From Oscillospiraceae bacterium (GTDB lineage Bacteria > Bacillota > Clostridia > Oscillospirales > Ruminococcaceae): a stretch of DNA of 64,000 bases. The translations under genes and the position numbers were made by a program. Position 1 is the first letter of the stretch. Each line of letters begins with the position of its first letter. Below the pieces are notes generated by a model. That model searched no databases. It saw only the letters and a list, made by a program, of their open reading frames with translations, and was not told where the DNA came from. The stretch lies in contig SVMZ01000007.1 in the NCBI GenBank assembly GCA_015067185.1, positions 31,533 through 95,532 of the forward strand, in the 5' to 3' direction. This document shows positions 5,844 to 64,000 of this stretch, piece by piece.

Positions 5844-6551
5844 TCAGGAATCCGAGATATCGTCGTCTGCCTGAGAGATATGGCAAAGGTTATAACAGTA
5901 GAGTTTTCCCCTCTTGCTGTTGTCGCAGAGAAAAATGCGGCGGCGGCTCTGTTCAAACATAACACGGCGAATACCGGTTTCTTCCGCTGAGGAATCGGTA
6001 ATCATTCCTTCTTCGGAGATACCCAGGCTGGAGAAAAAGAAGAGGTCGGCATTAAAACGGCGGATAAAATCGGTGGCATAATCACCGATATAGGCGAGGG
6101 AGTTGTGCAGCATCAATCCGCCGGTGCAGTAGACCGTGTGGTTAAGGGGCCGCAGTTCCTGTGAGGTTTTGAGTCCATTGGTAATGACAGTCAGATTTTT
6201 GAATTGCTCAAAGTAAGGGATAAGATACATGGCGGTGGAGGAGGCATCCATGAAAATCACCTGACCGTCACGGAGGTATTTGGCAGCCTTGGCGGCGATG
6301 AGGCGTTTGGCTTCCACATTCTGCTGCTCCCGCAGATAGAGCGGAACCTCTCTGCTCACACCATCAATGAGCACAACACCGCCATGGATGCGTCTGACAA
6401 AGCCGCGCCGTTCCAGCTCATTCAGGTCGCGGCGGACGGTAGCCTCGCTGACGTAGAGATGGGTGGAGAGCTTTTTTACGGTAGCCGTTTGGGTTTGACG
6501 GAGGAGAGCAAGGATCTGTTCAAGACGTTCCATTTCAAACATAGCTGTCAT
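5844..6551 (-). CDS. DeoR/GlpR family transcriptional regulator
   Basis: MERLEQILALLRQTQTATVKKLSTHLYVSEATVRRDLNELERRGFVRRIHGGVVL; divergent from the sugar genes at 6725. Confidence 0.9.
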   Translation of the reverse strand: MTAMFEMERLEQILALLRQTQTATVKKLSTHLYVSEATVRRDLNELERRGFVRRIHGGVVLIDGVSREVPLYLREQQNVEAKRLIAAKAAKYLRDGQVIFMDASSTAMYLIPYFEQFKNLTVITNGLKTSQELRPLNHTVYCTGGLMLHNSLAYIGDYATDFIRRFNADLFFFSSLGISEEGMITDSSAEETGIRRVMFEQSRRRIFLCDNSKRGKLYCYNLCHISQADDDISDS

Positions 6552-10009: not shown

Positions 10010-10031
10010 GTGTTTTATGTTGGAATAAAAA

Positions 10032-10066
10032 AGATGAGCCGATGGAGATCTTCGTCGGCTCATTTT
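10032..10066 (+). terminator. Rho-independent terminator
   Basis: gatgagccgatggagatcttcgtcggctcatttt after the kinase gene. Confidence 0.75.
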
Positions 10067-10254
10067 CTTTGTTGTTTTGAGAATATCGGTACGGAAAAAA
10101 GGGGCGGAATGGATAAAGGCGGAACCATATCTGTTCCCTTCGACAGGCATCTTATCAGGACTTGACACACCGATACCTTTCAATATATAATAAAAACACG
10201 TATCCGGATCCTCGGATAAACAATAGTTTACAACACTACAAGAGGAGAAAAGTT

Positions 10255-11886
10255 ATGATTGTTCCACGCGTAAAACAGGAGAAAAAAGGAAATAATACGG
10301 TTCTGGTTGATACAGCCATTACTTTGAGTGTTTGTGAAGAATATGCCTCAAAAGCTTCTCGCGCGCTGGCTGCTTTTTTGCCTCAGTGCCAGGTGATGGA
10401 ACAGAAGGAAAACGCGCTGGTCACCGTGGAAAAGGAACCGGGTTTTGCTGATAAGCCGGAAGCCTATCGACTGACGATTCTGAACGGGAAGGTTACTATT
10501 GGATGTATCTCCTATCTTGGCCTGCGTAACGCGTTGGCAGCCTTTTCTCTCACGGTTCGCTGTGTCGGCGGGAAACTGGCTTTGCCCGATACTACTATTG
10601 AAGACTGGCCGGATGCCGAATTCCGCAGTATTATGCTGGATATTGCCTCTATTGTCAAGCCGGTGGATGAGCTGAAGGGTGATCTCGTCCTGTTTGCCAA
10701 GTCCCGCATGAATTATGCACAGATTTATCTGTCTGACCGTCATGGCATTTGCCTGCGTTTGGATTGTCTGCCGGAAAAGATGTTCCTGAAAAACGCCTAC
10801 ACCAAAGAAGAGATGTGCGATATATGCGAATTTGCAGATATGCTGGGAATTGAACTGATTCCGCAATTTGATATGCCTGCACACTCAGGACTTCTGGTAA
10901 CATTATTTGACGCAATGATCTGCGATGCCCCCGAAGAGATCCTGCAGCGCAAAACCATGACTGCCTGCACTGGTGATCCCGAGGTGTACAGGATCTACGA
11001 AACCATCATCAACGAGATACTGGATATCTTTCCAGGTCGTTACTTCCACATGGGCGGTGATGAGTTGGAGATGTTGGATCTCTCCAGTTACTGCCATTGG
11101 GATTACTGTAACAAATGCCTTAAGCTGCGCGAGGAAAACGGACTTGCAGATCGTCAGGATCAATACAACTACTTTGTCAAGCGCATTCATGATATGGTAA
11201 CCAGGAGAGGCCGTTCTCTCATCATGTGGAACGATCAGGTGGATTGCCCCCGCGGTCCCGTTCTTCCCACCGATATCGTTATGGAGTTTTGGCGTGTAGC
11301 TGCTCCCGGCAGAGGTCCGGTGGAAGGCTGTTCTATGAATGCGCTGGCAGAAATGGGATATAAGGTCATCAATGCCTATTATCCCTACACCTATCTCTTT
11401 ACCGGAGAGCCTGTGATTCCTTTTACCTCCGAACTGCTGGGTAGTTGGATCTGGGATGAGGATCCCCCCTGCAACAAAGAATATGCTGCCAATATTATAG
11501 GCACTGAGCTGTGCGCATGGGGCTATTGCAGTCCAATTACCAAGTATCTCTATTATGCCCAGCCCTCCGCCTTTGTCCTCACGGCAGACAAGCAGTGGAA
11601 TAAGGATAGAGTTGTATATGATGAAGAGTTTGCACAGGCTCTGACCCGTACTCTGTTGGGTGTTTCTGTTCCCGAGGGTTTCAATCCCTTTGTTGGTATA
11701 GGCGATGTAGTGCCTCCGTTGGAGGATGGTAAGTTGGCGCATTGTGAGCGGGTTACCTGTTCCGATGAAGAACTGTCCGATATCGTCACCACCCTGTCGC
11801 GTACTGATATTATTCAGGGAGCAGATGCCGCAAGAGCCGCCATCTACCGTGAATGTGTAGAGTACGCACAGAAAAACAGAAAATAA
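10255..11886 (+). CDS. glycoside hydrolase family 20-like beta-N-acetylhexosaminidase
   Basis: DIFPGRYFHMGGDELEM (GH20 HxGGDE motif), GIELIPQFDMPAHSG; RBS agaggag before ATG at 10255. Confidence 0.8.
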   Translation: MIVPRVKQEKKGNNTVLVDTAITLSVCEEYASKASRALAAFLPQCQVMEQKENALVTVEKEPGFADKPEAYRLTILNGKVTIGCISYLGLRNALAAFSLTVRCVGGKLALPDTTIEDWPDAEFRSIMLDIASIVKPVDELKGDLVLFAKSRMNYAQIYLSDRHGICLRLDCLPEKMFLKNAYTKEEMCDICEFADMLGIELIPQFDMPAHSGLLVTLFDAMICDAPEEILQRKTMTACTGDPEVYRIYETIINEILDIFPGRYFHMGGDELEMLDLSSYCHWDYCNKCLKLREENGLADRQDQYNYFVKRIHDMVTRRGRSLIMWNDQVDCPRGPVLPTDIVMEFWRVAAPGRGPVEGCSMNALAEMGYKVINAYYPYTYLFTGEPVIPFTSELLGSWIWDEDPPCNKEYAANIIGTELCAWGYCSPITKYLYYAQPSAFVLTADKQWNKDRVVYDEEFAQALTRTLLGVSVPEGFNPFVGIGDVVPPLEDGKLAHCERVTCSDEELSDIVTTLSRTDIIQGADAARAAIYRECVEYAQKNRK

Positions 11887-11910
11887 AGTTTGTCATCATA
11901 AGAATTTTCC

Positions 11911-11945
11911 GGGGCTGTCTCATCTGCTTGTGAGACAGCCCCTTG
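11911..11945 (+). terminator. Rho-independent terminator-like hairpin
   Basis: ggggctgtctcatctgcttgtgagacagcccctt. Confidence 0.7.
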
Positions 11946-12082
11946 AGTTCTGAAAAACGTCAGCTGGTCGTAAGGGTATTTGTGTTGTGTTTTTCAGTTG
12001 TTTGAAAATATCGGCACGGGAAAAGTCGGAACAGACATGAGCTTTTTTGATACAATCAAAAACAGAAAGGAGGCGTGTGGGT

Positions 12083-12961
12083 ATGAATATACTCAGACAG
12101 TTGGATGAAGCGGTTGGTTATATCGAGAAGAATCTGTGTGCGGAGATCGATGTGGAAAAGGCTGCAGCCATTGCCTGTGTTTCCGCAGATAGTTTTTCGC
12201 GATTTTTCAGTTATATGACCGGGATGACACTGAAGGAATATGTGCGCTGCCGCCGAATGACTCTTGCCGCCGATGACCTGATAAATACGGAGAAGCGCGT
12301 GATCGATATTGCTGTCCAATACGGTTATGACAGCGCAGATGCTTTTTCGAGGGCCTTTGCCAGACAGCATGGAATAACACCGACAGAATACCGGAAAAAT
12401 GGCGGTTCTCTGAAAATATATCCCCCGGTCTCCTTTCATATCATCATCAAAGGAGCGAAAGAAATGAATTTCAGAATGGAAGAGCGGCAGGAAAGCAGGG
12501 TTTACGGGATATCCAGACAATTCGAGGGCGAAGGGTATCAAAACAAGGAAGAACTGCGCCACCTCATGTGGTCGGAAGAATGTGAAGATATTCCGGGAAA
12601 ATTGTGTGAGGGAAGATGGAATCAGCCGGGGAATACCAACTATGATGGCATCTGGTATGGAATTTGGCAGAACGGAAGATATATGATTGCCAGAGAAAGG
12701 GAGGCTGTTCGGGACGGTGGGTTTGAAATGAATATCATTCCCGGTGGAAGTTATGCTGTGTTTCAGACAGAAGCCGGTGGTTTGGCATGGGAGGAACTAC
12801 CGAAGCTGTTTGAATTGATCTGGGAATCCTGGCTGCTAGGTTCAGATTATCGGCAAAGAGCCCCCTTTGTTGTGGAGGTCTATCATTTGTGGACGGATTA
12901 TAAGAAACGTAAGGAAAGGCGGTATTATGAGGTGTGGATCCCCATCGAATGCAAAAAGTAA
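12083..12961 (+). CDS. AraC family transcriptional regulator with GyrI-like C-terminal domain
   Basis: N-terminal AraC HTH (VDIEKAAAIACVSADSFSRFFSYMTGMTLKEYVRCRRMTLAADDLI...RAFARQHGITPTEYR) and effector-type C-terminus. Confidence 0.85.
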   Translation: MNILRQLDEAVGYIEKNLCAEIDVEKAAAIACVSADSFSRFFSYMTGMTLKEYVRCRRMTLAADDLINTEKRVIDIAVQYGYDSADAFSRAFARQHGITPTEYRKNGGSLKIYPPVSFHIIIKGAKEMNFRMEERQESRVYGISRQFEGEGYQNKEELRHLMWSEECEDIPGKLCEGRWNQPGNTNYDGIWYGIWQNGRYMIAREREAVRDGGFEMNIIPGGSYAVFQTEAGGLAWEELPKLFELIWESWLLGSDYRQRAPFVVEVYHLWTDYKKRKERRYYEVWIPIECKK

Positions 12962-13089
12962 CAGTTCAAGTATTTCTTGAGTGAAAGAAAGAGAAATTCA
13001 AGCACAGATTGCTTTTTTAGCAGAGAAAAAATTGTTATGATGGAGACAACAGATACGGAAAAAATTCCGTAAAGGAAAGGAGAAAAAAC

Positions 13090-13857
13090 ATGTTTAATAT
13101 GGAATCGGTAGGCCGTAAAATTGCGGAATTGAGGAGAAAACGTGATATGACCCAGATGGAACTGGCAGACAAGCTGGGGATCAGTTTTCAGGCTGTTTCC
13201 AACTGGGAACGAGGAAATTCCATGCCGGATATCTCTAAACTTCCCGAACTGGCAGAATTGTTTGAAGTAACGATTGATGAACTGTTGAACGGAGAATCAA
13301 AGCTGATTGAAAGTATCGCCAAGGGAGAGACTGAGGAGTATCTTAAAGAAAACGAGGTCGGTCTTGAAGAGTTGAAGGAGATGGCAGGCATACTGAAACC
13401 AAGTCAGGTAGGTAAAATTGTGGAGAAAGGAGAATATAAAAGTTTAGAGGAAATAGAAGATATTCTGCCTTTTTTAGATGAGGAAACAACAGAAAAACTT
13501 GCGAGAAAAGCGGTGAAAGAGGAGAACTATCGGAATTTGGAATGCGTTGCACCGTTTATCAATAAAAACGTTTTGGATAAAATAGCCTGTGAAGTGTATG
13601 AGAAAAACGGGCTGACGGCAATAGAAGAGATTTTACCGTTTATTTCGTCAGAACAACGGAAGAAGATAGCTGACCGGGAATATAAAATGAGCGGGTTGAA
13701 AAATTTTGAGGATATTGCTCCCTTCCTCAACAGGGATTACCTGAATCAGCTTGCCAAAGAGGCTATCGAAAAAGATGGTATTAAGGCGATCAGCAACATA
13801 GCACCTTTTATAGGAAGAGAAGTTCTGGCAGAATATGTAAAAGAACAATATCTGTAA
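13090..13857 (+). CDS. XRE-family HTH regulator with C-terminal 'PFI' helical repeats
   Basis: IAELRRKRDMTQMELADKLGISFQAVSNWERGNSMPDISKLPELAELFEVTIDELL, then repeated ~28-30 aa units containing I.PFI. Confidence 0.85.
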   Translation: MFNMESVGRKIAELRRKRDMTQMELADKLGISFQAVSNWERGNSMPDISKLPELAELFEVTIDELLNGESKLIESIAKGETEEYLKENEVGLEELKEMAGILKPSQVGKIVEKGEYKSLEEIEDILPFLDEETTEKLARKAVKEENYRNLECVAPFINKNVLDKIACEVYEKNGLTAIEEILPFISSEQRKKIADREYKMSGLKNFEDIAPFLNRDYLNQLAKEAIEKDGIKAISNIAPFIGREVLAEYVKEQYL

Positions 13858-13996
13858 ATGAAAATTCAAAGATAAAAGAAAGCAAGGACGCATATCTTTT
13901 TTGATATGCGTCCTTACTTATAGAAATGATTAGTTTACTGGTTTTATCTGCGATGTTTCAGATCGTCCGGAATATCGGAGATTCGGTTGTGCCTAT
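13836..13996. repeat. Imperfect long direct repeat, copy A (XRE 3' end, terminator, aminotransferase 3' end)
   Basis: gaatatgtaaaagaacaat...agcaaggacgcat...tttatctgcgatgtttca..atcggagattcgg matches copy B at 16180-16345. Confidence 0.85.
13883..13918 (+). terminator. Terminator-like hairpin (copy A of the direct repeat)
   Basis: aaggacgcatatcttttttgatatgcgtcctta. Confidence 0.75.
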
Positions 13997-14106
13997 TTTG
14001 AACGGTAATCCCGGCATCCATAAAAATGTGGCGGAAGGCCAAATACTTGATGTTGATCAATTCCCTTCCCGTGGGAGAGATCCTGCGGGTGTTTGTTACT
14101 TTTCCA
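13926..14106 (-). pseudogene. Gene-tail remnant ending in an aminotransferase-like C-terminus (NRISDIPDDLKHRR*)
   Basis: Minus-strand open frame VHGKVTNTRRISPTGRELINIKYLAFRHIFMDAGITVQNRHNRISDIPDDLKHRR* has no obvious start; the tail matches the intact aminotransferase end SRISDFLDDLKHRR* at 16292. Confidence 0.5.
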
Positions 14107-14115
14107 TGAACTCTC

Positions 14116-14144
14116 TTGACAGAATTAATACCTCGTGATATGAT
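14116..14144 (+). promoter_or_regulatory. Sigma-A-type promoter for the padR operon
   Basis: TTGACA - 17 bp - TATGAT. Confidence 0.75.
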
Positions 14145-14168
14145 GTATGACGTAAGAGGAGGTATTAT

Positions 14169-14489
14169 ATGGATGTTCAGTTGAAACGAGGACTCTTGGA
14201 TGTCTGCGTTTTGGCAGCAATCAAGAGCGAAGACTCATACGGCTATAAAATCATAAAGGATATGAAACCGTATATTGAACTTTCCGAATCGACCCTATAT
14301 ACCATTCTGAAACGCTTGGAAACAGCGAATATGCTGACCGTTCGCACTGCAGAACACGGCGGCAGACTTCGGAAGTATTACCATATTACCGCTGAAGGTC
14401 TGAAGCGCATTGAAGATTTTAAGGTCGAATGGAAAGAACTCTTATCGATATACCGATTTGTAACTAAGGAGGATGATGGCAATGAGTAA
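14169..14489 (+). CDS. PadR family transcriptional regulator
   Basis: LKRGLLDVCVLAAIKSEDSYGYKIIKDMKPYIELSESTLYTILKRLETANMLTVRTAEHGGRLRKYYHITAEG. Confidence 0.92.
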   Translation: MDVQLKRGLLDVCVLAAIKSEDSYGYKIIKDMKPYIELSESTLYTILKRLETANMLTVRTAEHGGRLRKYYHITAEGLKRIEDFKVEWKELLSIYRFVTKEDDGNE

Positions 14490-15081
14490 ACAGGAATTCC
14501 TTGCACAGTTGCGTAAAGGTTTATCCGGATTGCCCCAGGATGACATAGAGGAACGTTTGACTTTTTACAGTGAAATGATTGAAGATCAAATGGAAGAAGG
14601 AATTTCAGAGGAGGAAGCAGTTTCGGCAGTAGGTTCTGTTGAGAAAATCGTTGCACAAACAGTAGCAGAAATGCCTCTTGCCAAAATTGCTAAGGAAAGA
14701 GTAAGAGCCAAAAAACGTCTAAGCGCAGGAGAAATCGTACTTTTGGCTCTTGGTTCTCCCATATGGATTTCCTTGGGTATTGCCGCATTTGCCGTTATTC
14801 TTTCGCTTTACATTTTGTTGTGGTCTGTGATTATTTCTTTATGGGCTGTTTTTGCTTCGCTTGCCGCCTGTAGTGTTGGAGGCATATTGGCATGTGTCAT
14901 TTTTGTTGCAGGAGGTAACGAGGCTTCGGGTTTTGCCATGTTCGCCGCAGGTCTTGTTTGTGCGGGTCTTACTATTTTTATGTTCTATGGATGTAAGGCA
15001 GTAACAGACGGCATCGTGATACTCACAAAGAAAATGGCAATATGGATTAAAAATTGCTTTGTCAAGAAGGAGGAAGCATAA
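14482..15081 (+). CDS. DUF1700-domain membrane protein
   Basis: MSKQEFLAQLRKGLSGLPQDDIEERLTFYSEMIEDQMEEGISEEEAVSAVGSVEKI plus TM segments. Confidence 0.85.
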   Translation: MSKQEFLAQLRKGLSGLPQDDIEERLTFYSEMIEDQMEEGISEEEAVSAVGSVEKIVAQTVAEMPLAKIAKERVRAKKRLSAGEIVLLALGSPIWISLGIAAFAVILSLYILLWSVIISLWAVFASLAACSVGGILACVIFVAGGNEASGFAMFAAGLVCAGLTIFMFYGCKAVTDGIVILTKKMAIWIKNCFVKKEEA

Positions 15082-16061
15082 TGAGGACGAGAACAAAGCT
15101 ATGGCTTATTATAGCAGCTTCTCTTGTGTTGATTGGCTGTATTCTCTTTGCAGTTGTTATGACAACGTGTGGTTGGAATTTTATAGAGCTTGCGACCGTT
15201 GAATACAAAACAACTACTTACGAAATCAGCGAAACATTTGAAGGTATATCTTTAAATACAGATACTGCAGACATTGTGTTTGCCGTTTCTGATAATGGCA
15301 AGTGCAGCGTAGAGTGTCACGAGGAAGAAAATGAAAAACATTCTGTGACTGTAAAAGATGGTATACTCACCATTGAATTGGTTGATGAAAGATCTATACA
15401 GGACTTTATCGGATATATCGGGTTAAACTTTGAATCACCTAAGATAACGGTTTATCTGCCGAAAACAGCATACGCAACCCTGTACATCCATGGAGATACT
15501 AGTGATGTTGAAATACCTGATGATTTTATGTTTAAGGAGGTTGATATTTCTTTAAGCACGGGTGATGTTGATTTTTATGCATCTGCTTCTGAAATGATTA
15601 AAATAAAAGCAAGTACAGGAGATATTTGTATGGAGAATCTCTCCGCTGGCTCACTTGACCTTTCAGTTTCCACAGGCAAGGTAACAGTTTCATCTGTGAA
15701 CTGCGGGGGAGATGTTACGGTCGGTGTTTCAACAGGCGATACAAATTTGACTGATGTCTGGTGCAAAAGCGTTGTTTCAAGCGGGAACACAGGTGATATC
15801 TCTTTAAACCATGTTATTGGCGAGGAAAAGTTCTCAATTAAGAGAAGCACCGGCGATGTGCATTTTGAAAACAGCGATGCTGCCGAGATTTTCGTAGAAA
15901 CAGATACCGGATACGTTACAGGAACTTTGCTTACCGATAAGGTGTTTTTTGTCAGCACGGATACAGGGAAAACAGATGTACCCAAAACCGTAACAGGAGG
16001 CAGATGCGAGATTACCACCGATACGGGAGATATCAGGATAACGGTTAAGCAACAGAGATAA
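15081..16061 (+). CDS. DUF4097-family beta-strand repeat protein
   Basis: N-terminal TM, then repeated (S/D)TGD motifs: LSTGDVDFY, ASTGDICME, VSTGKVTVS, VSTGDTNLT, RSTGDVHFE, DTGYVTG, DTGKTDV, DTGDIRI. Confidence 0.85.
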   Translation: MRTRTKLWLIIAASLVLIGCILFAVVMTTCGWNFIELATVEYKTTTYEISETFEGISLNTDTADIVFAVSDNGKCSVECHEEENEKHSVTVKDGILTIELVDERSIQDFIGYIGLNFESPKITVYLPKTAYATLYIHGDTSDVEIPDDFMFKEVDISLSTGDVDFYASASEMIKIKASTGDICMENLSAGSLDLSVSTGKVTVSSVNCGGDVTVGVSTGDTNLTDVWCKSVVSSGNTGDISLNHVIGEEKFSIKRSTGDVHFENSDAAEIFVETDTGYVTGTLLTDKVFFVSTDTGKTDVPKTVTGGRCEITTDTGDIRITVKQQR

Positions 16062-16179
16062 AACCCACTGCAAAAACCGCTTCCATACAGTGTTCTCTCC
16101 TGATCCAACGTAAATATTTTTTCGGTGAGGGAAAACGAGGAAATCCAGGTTTAATATCTCCGGATTCCCTGAATCGGCG

Positions 16180-16345
16180 GAATATGTAAAAGAGCAATAG
16201 CTGCAAATAAAATTTTAAAGATAAAAGTAAGCAAGGACGCATCTCATTTTTGAGATGCGTCCTTGCCTATGGGAATGATTGATTTGTTGGTTTATCTGCG
16301 ATGTTTCAAGTCATCCAGGAAATCGGAGATTCGGCTGACTGCCTC
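16180..16345. repeat. Imperfect long direct repeat, copy B
   Basis: gaatatgtaaaagagcaat...gcaaggacgcatc...tttatctgcgatgtttca..aatcggagattcgg; includes an XRE-like tail (AEYVKEQ*) and the true aminotransferase 3' end. Confidence 0.85.
16233..16267. terminator. Terminator-like hairpin (copy B)
   Basis: caaggacgcatctcatttttgagatgcgtccttg. Confidence 0.75.
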
Positions 16346-17476
16346 TTTCAGATCTTCCATAGAGGTGGCATAGCAGGCACGGACATGCATCTTTCCGGCA
16401 TCGCCAAAAGCATCTCCGGGGATAACCAGCACCTTTTTGCGCTCCAGCAGCTGTTCACAGAACTGGGTACAGCTGAGTCCGGTAGCTTCAATGGAGGGGA
16501 AGGCATAGAAAGCACCTTCCGGGTTGGCACAGGTGAGGCCCAGTGCATTAAAAGCGCCGACCAAATATTTACGGCGGGCATCATATTCGGCAATCATAGC
16601 ATTGACATCTGCCCAACCGGTCTCAAACCCCTGTTCAAGCGCGTAGCAGCCGGCAATCTGAGCTGTCGTCGGTGCACAGAGCACGGTAAGCTGATGAATC
16701 TTGGTCATCATGGATATGAACTCAATGGGGCCAACGGCAAAGCCAAGCCGCCAACCGGTCATGGAGAAGGATTTAGAGAAACCGTTAAGGACAATGGTGC
16801 GCTCTTTCATGCCGGGGAGGGATGCGATGGAAACATGACGTTTTCCGTTATAGGTGAGTTCAGCGTAGATCTCATCGGAGATAATGGTAATATTAGTTTC
16901 GCGGATGACTTCGGCAATAGCCTCCAGGTCTTCTTTTTCCATGATTCCGCCGGTGGGGTTAGTGGGATAGGCGAGGAGAAGAACTCTGGTCTTCGGTGTA
17001 ATGGCAGCGCGAAGTACATCGGGTGTGAGTTTAAAATGATGAGCGGCGTCTGTCACTACGGGAACAGGAACACCGCCTACAAGGCGGATACCAGGTTCGT
17101 ATGTGACATAAGTCGGTGTGGTATAAATAACTTCATCGCCAGGATTGATTGCAACGCGAAAGGCAAGATCGGCAGCGTGTCCGGCACCGATGGTGATGAG
17201 TGAATTCTGGATCTCATAACCATCCAGTCCGAAACGATCGGAAATATAATCAAGAACGAGCTGACGCAGCTTGGGCATGCCGGCATTGGCGGTATAGGGT
17301 ACCTTGTTGTGGTAGATGGTTTCCGCAGCAGCATGACGAATACTATCCGGCGTCGGGAAATCCGGTTCACCAACACCGAGACTGATACAGCTGTCGTCCA
17401 GCAGATCAAAATACTTTCTGATTCCGGACGGTTTGATATCGAGAACCGTCTCGTTGATCACGGGATTATATGACAT
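16292..17476 (-). CDS. pyridoxal phosphate-dependent class I/II aminotransferase
   Basis: SLGVGEPDFPTPDSIRHAA, YPTNPTGGIMEKEDLEAIAEVI, SDEIYAELTY, LNGFSKSFSMTGWRLGFAVGP. Confidence 0.93.
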   Translation of the reverse strand: MSYNPVINETVLDIKPSGIRKYFDLLDDSCISLGVGEPDFPTPDSIRHAAAETIYHNKVPYTANAGMPKLRQLVLDYISDRFGLDGYEIQNSLITIGAGHAADLAFRVAINPGDEVIYTTPTYVTYEPGIRLVGGVPVPVVTDAAHHFKLTPDVLRAAITPKTRVLLLAYPTNPTGGIMEKEDLEAIAEVIRETNITIISDEIYAELTYNGKRHVSIASLPGMKERTIVLNGFSKSFSMTGWRLGFAVGPIEFISMMTKIHQLTVLCAPTTAQIAGCYALEQGFETGWADVNAMIAEYDARRKYLVGAFNALGLTCANPEGAFYAFPSIEATGLSCTQFCEQLLERKKVLVIPGDAFGDAGKMHVRACYATSMEDLKEAVSRISDFLDDLKHRR

Positions 17477-61275: not shown

Positions 61276-64000
61276 ATGAAACGCTTTATGAAAACCATGA
61301 TCTCCCTGATTCTGGTATGCTGCATGCTTCTGAGCACAGTTGTTGCTTTTGGCGTAGAGCTGGACAGCAATTCCGCAGCAACCAATCCGTCCGGCGGTGC
61401 AGCTACCGTTGCTACCGGTTCCACCACCAAATCCAAAACAGCTACACAGCTCTATGATGACAAATACACCGACGTTACCCTGAAAGTCGGCGGCGCATCC
61501 TCCGAGCTGGGCGTAGATATCGTCTACATCGTAGGTGCTTTTGCAACCCATAAGGATGGTAGTCCTAATGCAGAGGGCGACGTTCTGATCAGCAGTCTGG
61601 TTGGCGCTATGACCGATATCGTCAATGCAGGTGTTCCTGTCAACTTCGGTATGGTTCCCTTCTCTTCCGACCCCTACGTTGCAATGCCTCTTACCACCAT
61701 CACCAAAGATAACCTGGCTGATCTGCCTGCTATGATAAATACAGCACTTGCTACTTGTCAGGCTGCTTATGATGGCGTAAACATGGAAAACGCTCTGCTC
61801 AAGGCGAAGCAGATGTTCAGCACCTCTCCCTTGGCAACTCACCCCGAGCGTCAGCATCTGGTAATGGTTACTTCCGGTCTTACCTACTTCTTCAACAGCG
61901 GCGCAAACAATGACTATGCTTCCACTGTTCCCGTAAACTTTATTAAAACAACAGATAAAGTTGATGAAAATGGTGAGAAAATAGTAATCAATTCAAACGG
62001 TATTTTCTATACCAATAAAGCTTGGATGCGTGCCCGTACCGAGCAGACCAACACTTATCCTATCCCCAAAGCTATTGTAAATGCATATAACGCCTCCGGT
62101 TCCACTATTGGTCTCTGGAATTACTACTGGAACTATATTGATATGTGGGCAAGAGCAGATATCGCAGCAGGTGACAGCGTTGTTTGTGAAGTTGCAACCA
62201 TTGATTCCCTTGGTTTCTATAGCTGGTATAGCTCTGGTTCCGCTTATCCCAATGATCATACTTTTAGAAACGGTGGTTTCGGTGCGTATCATCCGATCAG
62301 TGATCCGGCAGAACTTGCCAACTATGCATCTTTTGAAGCTGGCGCAAATCCTCTTACCAACGCAGCAGCAGCACATGCTATTGGTTATGAACGTGCTATG
62401 TGGGAAGCTTATCAGTATGCTCAGGCAAACATCATCGGCGCAGGTATTAACTTCTATCCCATCTACAAAGCACTGAATGCACAGTCTACAAACGGAAATA
62501 CCGAATGGTGTAACTGGACAGATCAGTACATCAACCACAGCTTCGTAAATATGCTGGCCGGCGGCACAGCAAAGAAATACGACGCTCAGGCTGACAAGAC
62601 CTTCTTCAGTGAAATTACCGAAAGTGTTATCAGTAGCATCTCCAAGGGTACTTATGTAGTAGACTATATCGGCTACAGCGAAGCAGACGGTTATGATTTT
62701 GACTTCATTCAGAGTGCAGATAAGATTATCCTGAAGGTTGGCGAAGTTGCTTATATCACTTCTGTTGTTGCTGCAAGAAACGGCGCAACCGCAAGTTATG
62801 ATTTCACCGCTCCCGGTGCTGAGACAGCAACCTTCTTCCTGGATTATTACTATGGCAACGGCACCACCGAAGAGAGATTTGTCTGGACTTTCGGTGAAGA
62901 CGTTCTCGCACAGGCTCCCACCTCCCTTACCTATACCCTCGAGCTCGTCAAGAGAAGCGAGATCCCCGGCAGCTATGATCAGGTTTACACCAACCAGAGC
63001 GCTACCCTCTATCCCAAAAACAGTGACGGCACTGACGGTTCCTTCGAAGTATTCGAGCAGCCCCACGTAAACTATGTTGTTCCCGGCATTGATATTGTTG
63101 GAACCAAGATCTGGAACGATGACAATAACCGTGACGGCGTACGTCCCGAAAGCATCACTATCAATCTCCTCGCAGACGGTTTGGAAGTTGCTGAACAGGT
63201 TGTAACCGAGGGCGAAGATGGCAGCTGGAGCTATAGCTTCACCGGCTTGCAGAAGACCAAAGACGGTGTAGATATTGTCTACACCATCACCGAAGATGCA
63301 GTAGAAGGCTACACCACAAGTGTTGAAGGCAACACCACAAGTGTAGAAGGCTACACTGTCACCAACACCCATAATCCCGCAACCACCGAGATCACCGTAG
63401 AAAAAGTATGGGATGACGAAGATGACAAAGACGGCATCCGTCCCGATTCCATCACCGTTACCCTCTATGCCAACGGCGATGAATATGCCACCGCAAAGAT
63501 CACAGCTGAAGATGGCTGGAAAACAACCTTCCCCGGGCTGTATGTCTATGAAAACGGCGAAGAGATCGTTTACACTGTGGATGAGGCTGCAGTAGAAGGC
63601 TACACCACAGTAGTCGAAGGCTACATCATCACCAACACCCATGTTCCTGAGATTGTTGAGATCACCAATCCCGCATCGGTAACCCTCCGCGGAGTTAAGT
63701 ATCTTGATCTTAATCCGGATTCCGGTTTCCTCTTTACCCTGACCGATGGAAACGGCAGAATGGTTGACTACGCAATCAGCGGAAATCAGGGTCAGTTCGT
63801 GTTCGATACCATCACCTTCACGGAGGCAGGTACCTACAGATACCGCATTACAGAAGTTGACGGCGGCAGCGACAGCATCAACTATGATACATCCGTATAT
63901 GATGTAGTTGTTACTGTAACTGAAAACGGCGAGAACCTGGTTGCAAACGTGGCAGTATCCAGAAACGGTGCAAACTACAGAGGAACCATTGCATTCTACA
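61276..64000 (+). CDS. secreted Cna-B/Spy0128-type surface protein with VWA-like N-terminal region (3' end beyond window)
   Basis: Signal peptide MKRFMKTMISLILVCCMLLSTVVAFG; VWA-like DIVYIVGAFATHKDG...; two Cna-B units (GTKIWNDDNNRDGVRPESITINLLADG; VEKVWDDEDDKDGIRPDSITVTLYANG); pilin-like GVKYLDLNPDSGFLFTLTD...TYRYRITEVDGG. Not in the ORF track because it is open at the edge. Confidence 0.88.
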   Translation, partial: MKRFMKTMISLILVCCMLLSTVVAFGVELDSNSAATNPSGGAATVATGSTTKSKTATQLYDDKYTDVTLKVGGASSELGVDIVYIVGAFATHKDGSPNAEGDVLISSLVGAMTDIVNAGVPVNFGMVPFSSDPYVAMPLTTITKDNLADLPAMINTALATCQAAYDGVNMENALLKAKQMFSTSPLATHPERQHLVMVTSGLTYFFNSGANNDYASTVPVNFIKTTDKVDENGEKIVINSNGIFYTNKAWMRARTEQTNTYPIPKAIVNAYNASGSTIGLWNYYWNYIDMWARADIAAGDSVVCEVATIDSLGFYSWYSSGSAYPNDHTFRNGGFGAYHPISDPAELANYASFEAGANPLTNAAAAHAIGYERAMWEAYQYAQANIIGAGINFYPIYKALNAQSTNGNTEWCNWTDQYINHSFVNMLAGGTAKKYDAQADKTFFSEITESVISSISKGTYVVDYIGYSEADGYDFDFIQSADKIILKVGEVAYITSVVAARNGATASYDFTAPGAETATFFLDYYYGNGTTEERFVWTFGEDVLAQAPTSLTYTLELVKRSEIPGSYDQVYTNQSATLYPKNSDGTDGSFEVFEQPHVNYVVPGIDIVGTKIWNDDNNRDGVRPESITINLLADGLEVAEQVVTEGEDGSWSYSFTGLQKTKDGVDIVYTITEDAVEGYTTSVEGNTTSVEGYTVTNTHNPATTEITVEKVWDDEDDKDGIRPDSITVTLYANGDEYATAKITAEDGWKTTFPGLYVYENGEEIVYTVDEAAVEGYTTVVEGYIITNTHVPEIVEITNPASVTLRGVKYLDLNPDSGFLFTLTDGNGRMVDYAISGNQGQFVFDTITFTEAGTYRYRITEVDGGSDSINYDTSVYDVVVTVTENGENLVANVAVSRNGANYRGTIAFY

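Follow-up and report, generated by a model that had tools for sequence, protein, structure and literature searches.

A probable insertion-duplication scar around a PadR-HAAS-Toastrack operon in an Oscillospiraceae bacterium

How does a small regulatory operon come to lie between two copies of the same host gene ends? The question is raised by a locus in the genome of an Oscillospiraceae bacterium (G000), of which a stretch of 64,000 nucleotides, hereafter the window, was analysed. To the left of the operon stands an intact gene for an XRE-family regulator (13090-13857, plus strand; HTH_3 plus PF-type helical repeats, Pfam HTH_3 E 2e-17), and to its right an intact gene for a PLP-dependent aminotransferase (16292-17476, minus strand; Aminotran_1_2 E 2e-65). 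The operon is flanked by direct repeats that both derive from a single uninterrupted stretch of host DNA, with XRE intact at the left and the aminotransferase at the right. Alignment of 13827-13999 (copy A) with 16176-16349 (copy B) by BLASTN and Smith-Waterman gives 144 identities over 174 columns (83%), with three gap columns and an E value of 4e-47, in agreement with the initial annotation, which had matched 13836-13996 to 16180-16345 at roughly 80% by eye. Both copies carry an XRE 3' end, a spacer, the aminotransferase terminator hairpin and an aminotransferase 3' end, and they agree at 27/31 positions in the XRE tail, 35/40 in the hairpin and 43/57 in the aminotransferase tail. As had also been described from the outset, the two copies are degenerate at opposite ends: in copy A the XRE end (13857) is intact and the aminotransferase tail is a relic (13943-13999, minus strand; DDLKHRR*) with F-to-I and L-to-P changes and one indel, whereas in copy B the XRE tail (AEYVKEQ*) has decayed and the aminotransferase is intact. 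The hairpin has a 17-bp stem in copy A (13880-13919) and a 19-bp stem in copy B (16228-16269, between the operon and the aminotransferase gene), each with its U-tract on the minus strand.

A repeat of this kind in a fragmented draft assembly, here of 54 contigs, invites the suspicion of an assembly artefact, or of two terminators that resemble one another by chance. The probability of either is negligible. The copies are 17% diverged and their longest common exact word is 18 nt, which makes an artefact unlikely. Similarity extends over the coding ends and spacers, which refutes the alternative that only the terminators are alike, and the hairpin pattern has just these two occurrences in the genome.

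The repeat was originally taken to be about 165 bp long, which proves to be an underestimate. To the left of the aligned part of copy B, positions 16133-16157 match 13076-13100, the ribosome-binding site and start codon region of XRE, at 20/25, and positions 16162-16178 match an inner XRE segment (13734-13750) at 15/17; in the 64-kb window neither has a second match on either strand, at thresholds of at least 19/25 and at least 14/17 respectively. Weaker similarity reaches upstream to 16108/13055, where the left end of the duplicated unit in copy A (13055-13089, plus strand), comprising the XRE leader with the palindrome ACGGAAAAAATTCCGT and the ribosome-binding site, aligns with 16108-16157 as far as the start codon. 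For this extension, 2 of 2000 shuffles gave an equal score, as did 2 of 1048 control segments; a looser test of all of 16062-16175 against the XRE gene was equalled by at most 2 of 1000 shuffles, but by 2 of 120 control segments. Because the leader and start region, the inner segment and the 3' end are collinear and in the right order, the plus-strand stretch 16108-16206, defined by the unique matches together with the 3' repeat, is what remains of a complete second XRE gene that collapsed through two deletions, of about 633 bp (13101-13733) and about 76 bp (13751-13826). The ancestral duplicated unit thus measured some 945 bp, from the XRE leader to the aminotransferase 3' end (13055-13999), with the whole XRE gene inside it.

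The operon enclosed by these copies consists of three plus-strand genes. The first encodes a stand-alone PadR-like winged helix repressor (14169-14489; Pfam PadR E 1e-16, 61 bits against a cut-off of 27), and directly after it follows a multi-spanning HAAS/DUF1700 membrane protein (14494-15081; Pfam HAAS E 1e-13, 51.5 bits against 27). The third product is a Toastrack DUF4097 protein with an N-terminal membrane segment (15081-16061; Pfam E 1e-24, 87.8 bits against 22.9), which also has a LiaG-like NCBIfam match below cut-off. The promoter (14116-14147, plus strand; TTGACA-17-TATGAT) is strong (11 of 12), and a PadR-type palindrome, TACCTCgtgatatGATGTA (14129-14147), lies over its -10 element. 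Promoter and palindrome begin at 14116, exactly where similarity to the modules of the sister species (G001) and of a genome from another genus (G131) begins. A palindrome is recognisable at the same position upstream of nearly all of the approximately 40 related modules, and the -10 site is its only exact match in the genome; the element is a suggestive candidate for a PadR operator of autorepression. A second operator-like match at 63888 was taken as chance, and falls inside a surface-protein gene; the reading frame there (61276-64000) is long and open, resembles that of a surface protein, contains repeated Cna-B-like segments and runs off the contig end.

This three-gene order is that of lltR-lmo0600-lmo0601 in Listeria monocytogenes, where PadR represses its own operon, expression rises 150-fold in the mutant and LiaI/LiaH also rise (PMC6624303). 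The Listeria operon belongs to another Bacillota class and to another location, and a flanking duplication is not described in the available part of that report. HAAS proteins with PadR-like wHTH and Toastrack partners have also been assigned to the PSP envelope-stress network as a proposed alternative to two-component signalling that senses membrane stress (PMC11237479). As in those systems, HAAS in the window has a stand-alone PadR next to it and Toastrack as a partner, whereas PspC is missing from the operon and the conserved GxP motif of the published description is replaced by GxV, namely GSV in the window (HAAS 14494-14700) and GSV or GTV in the nearest relatives. The absence of GxP is not decisive, because the motif is variable among the 21 proteins that were aligned for comparison and the protein matches the curated Pfam HAAS model. 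Given that the operon has kept its own promoter and a conserved putative PadR operator, it most likely acts as a self-repressing switch for membrane stress, of the Listeria type, a role in membrane-stress sensing that is read across from the published systems. The copy B hairpin, downstream of the operon, may serve as its transcription stop.

The history of the operon appears to differ from that of its host. PadR has 91% amino-acid identity to its counterpart in G131 and 89% to that in G001. A tree of HAAS plus Toastrack pairs G000 with G131 at a support of 100/99, beyond which pair the tree is poorly resolved, and the AU test rejects a grouping of the window operon with that of G001 (p 0.001). 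Core proteins are far closer to G001 (SigG 90% versus about 70% for G131; NCS2 89% versus 70%). The third-position GC content is 0.35-0.36 in the HAAS and Toastrack genes, against 0.47-0.53 in the kinase, aminotransferase, flavin reductase, sigG and DegT genes. Given this low GC3, and the conflict of tree and AU test with the core proteins, the operon is most likely a horizontal gain, foreign to the genus. The sister species has a PadR-HAAS-Toastrack operon of its own at another locus, flanked by ChrA and an NCS2 permease (as named from their translations), a site occupied by other genes in G000. The ChrA-NCS2 interval (L066:5990-9795 and L074:3621-13904) is itself a second variable site, and in G000 it is occupied by genes for a NUDIX-like protein, an AraC-type sensor and ABC sugar transport. 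As G001 is the one other genome of the genus that was compared and is 80% complete, loss in G001 is a possible alternative to gain. Searches for similar DNA gave no match in the phage collection and one short, PadR-sized match in the plasmid collection.

Comparison with the sister locus bears on what stood here before the operon. In G001 the aminotransferase is a 91% identical ortholog in the same DegT-sigG-flavin reductase-aminotransferase order, and it is followed by a terminator homologous to that of the window and then by a sugar kinase, with both XRE and the module absent from the site. The presence of this terminator beside the aminotransferase in G001 indicates that it belongs to the aminotransferase gene itself. 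No full-length XRE ortholog was detected in G001, the best match anywhere searched being 42% (G035), and no XRE relatives were found on the scanned GTDB contigs; XRE is either a recent neighbour confined to this lineage or a gene that G001 has lost. Among the 80 aminotransferase loci scanned on GTDB contigs, the kinase-aminotransferase order occurs in the sister alone. The interval between these two genes (window 10010-16291) is 6.3 kb here and about 200 bp in G001; in the window it contains GH20-like, AraC and XRE genes in addition to the operon (kinase and GH20-like being names taken from translations), and it is possibly an insertion hot spot.

Both copies carry the XRE-terminator-aminotransferase junction, and for this reason the adjacency of these elements is older than the event and predates arrival of the operon, in keeping with the ancestral order first suggested. 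An empty version of that junction, which the initial annotation had suggested seeking in relatives lacking the module, was found in no relative, the only sister genome having kinase, terminator and aminotransferase without XRE. As to timing, copies A and B have 28 differences from G001 in common, against 11 and 14 changes confined to single copies, and are thus sisters of one another, produced by a duplication that postdates the divergence from G001. The distance between them is about 0.20, compared with synonymous distances between species that are at least 1.6 or saturated.

The explanation that we consider probable is insertion with duplication. An ancestral XRE gene, terminator and convergent aminotransferase would have received a foreign PadR-HAAS-Toastrack operon by recombination that duplicated about 945 bp, yielding the order XRE, terminator, truncated aminotransferase, operon, second XRE, terminator and aminotransferase. 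Entry could have been by single-crossover integration of a circle carrying the operon and an XRE-terminator-truncated aminotransferase stretch, or a tandem duplication may have caught the operon at the point where its two units meet; at breakpoints of this age microhomology can no longer be seen. The redundant aminotransferase end and second XRE would then have decayed, the latter through its two large deletions, while both terminators remained foldable. The initial annotation had likewise proposed that the module entered through a duplication or recombination event, a proposal that is partly supported. The repeats, the collinear XRE remnant, the foreign phylogeny of the operon and its absence from this site in the sister species are observed; that there was one event and not two, and by which route, we infer.

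Since no genome with an empty XRE-terminator-aminotransferase site was found, duplication and operon entry could be separate events. A tandem duplication would then have come first and the operon would later have inserted into the redundant, unconstrained junction, for which a decaying duplicated segment may have been a tolerant target; no sequence feature links the two events in time. This succession is less parsimonious, as the insertion must have fallen at or very near the junction of the truncated aminotransferase with the second XRE, leaving only two unexplained spacers, one on either side of the operon, of 116 bp (14000-14115, between the aminotransferase relic and the operon promoter) and 46 bp (16062-16107), and we hold it to be quite unlikely. 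The aminotransferase relic could not be followed into 14000-14115, which 213 of 1000 shuffles equalled in alignment to the gene, and that spacer has no match in the window, at related loci or in Pfam. On the minus strand, the relic tail shares its frame with an open stretch of 74 codons (13946-14168), which has no Pfam match and may be due to chance.

A single simple duplication would also suffice, with no foreign DNA needed at that moment, if the operon had originally stood upstream of XRE. Tandem duplication would then have produced a first operon, XRE, terminator and truncated aminotransferase followed by a second operon, XRE, terminator and aminotransferase, and the first operon would later have been deleted; the short distance of 46 bp from the operon stop codon to the second XRE fits such an order. 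Yet upstream of XRE (12962-13055) there is no trace of a lost operon copy or of the operon's 3' flank, shuffles scoring equally well, and the deletion must have ended cleanly at the repeat start. This course of events is unlikely, and insertion with duplication of the host segment remains the preferred reading.

That the operon is a mobile element whose arrival produced a long target-site duplication is very improbable. Its occurrence at differing loci in differing genomes would suit such an element, but the interval holds only regulator, membrane and Toastrack genes, with no transposase, integrase or recombinase, and neighbouring gene ends are duplicated at none of the 35 other module sites whose flanks could be used. 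The view that this is no transposon footprint therefore holds, whereas the idea that the same module might lie between duplicated ends elsewhere does not, and the scar is a one-off rather than a property of the operon. We know of no target duplication of comparable length. Repeats on either side of the module in G173 (L192:2286-2471 and 6195-6379) and G133 (L213:1829-2147 and 6130-6356; in both cases with PadR turned to the plus strand) were considered as the same scar and rejected, being dispersed intergenic repeats, GC-rich or hairpin-rich, and not gene ends.

Established processes offer partial parallels to insertion with duplication. In Vibrio T6SS arrays, modules are displaced by homology-facilitated illegitimate recombination (PMC5361080); there too the incoming module is anchored by homology and remnants of a displaced neighbour stay behind, whereas in the window the duplication is additive, each side retaining a piece of one segment with no displacement. 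Transformation generates merodiploids, that is, partial chromosome duplications arising during gene exchange (PMC3784515), compared with which the scar described here is small and decayed and encloses a foreign operon.

It is a highly speculative extension of this reading that the operon travels between Clostridia without a recombinase of its own, that homology at the ends of convergent genes lets it enter on circular or linear DNA, and that sites may retain duplication scars recording such entry. Every ingredient of the locus is of a known type, and neither the operon nor recombination is understood differently as a result. What distinguishes the scar is its unusual legibility, in that the earlier gene order, the foreign operon and the decayed redundant copies can all be read from one interval for which the sister genome gives the direction, and it illustrates how stress-signalling operons may arrive at new sites with no mobile element to carry them.
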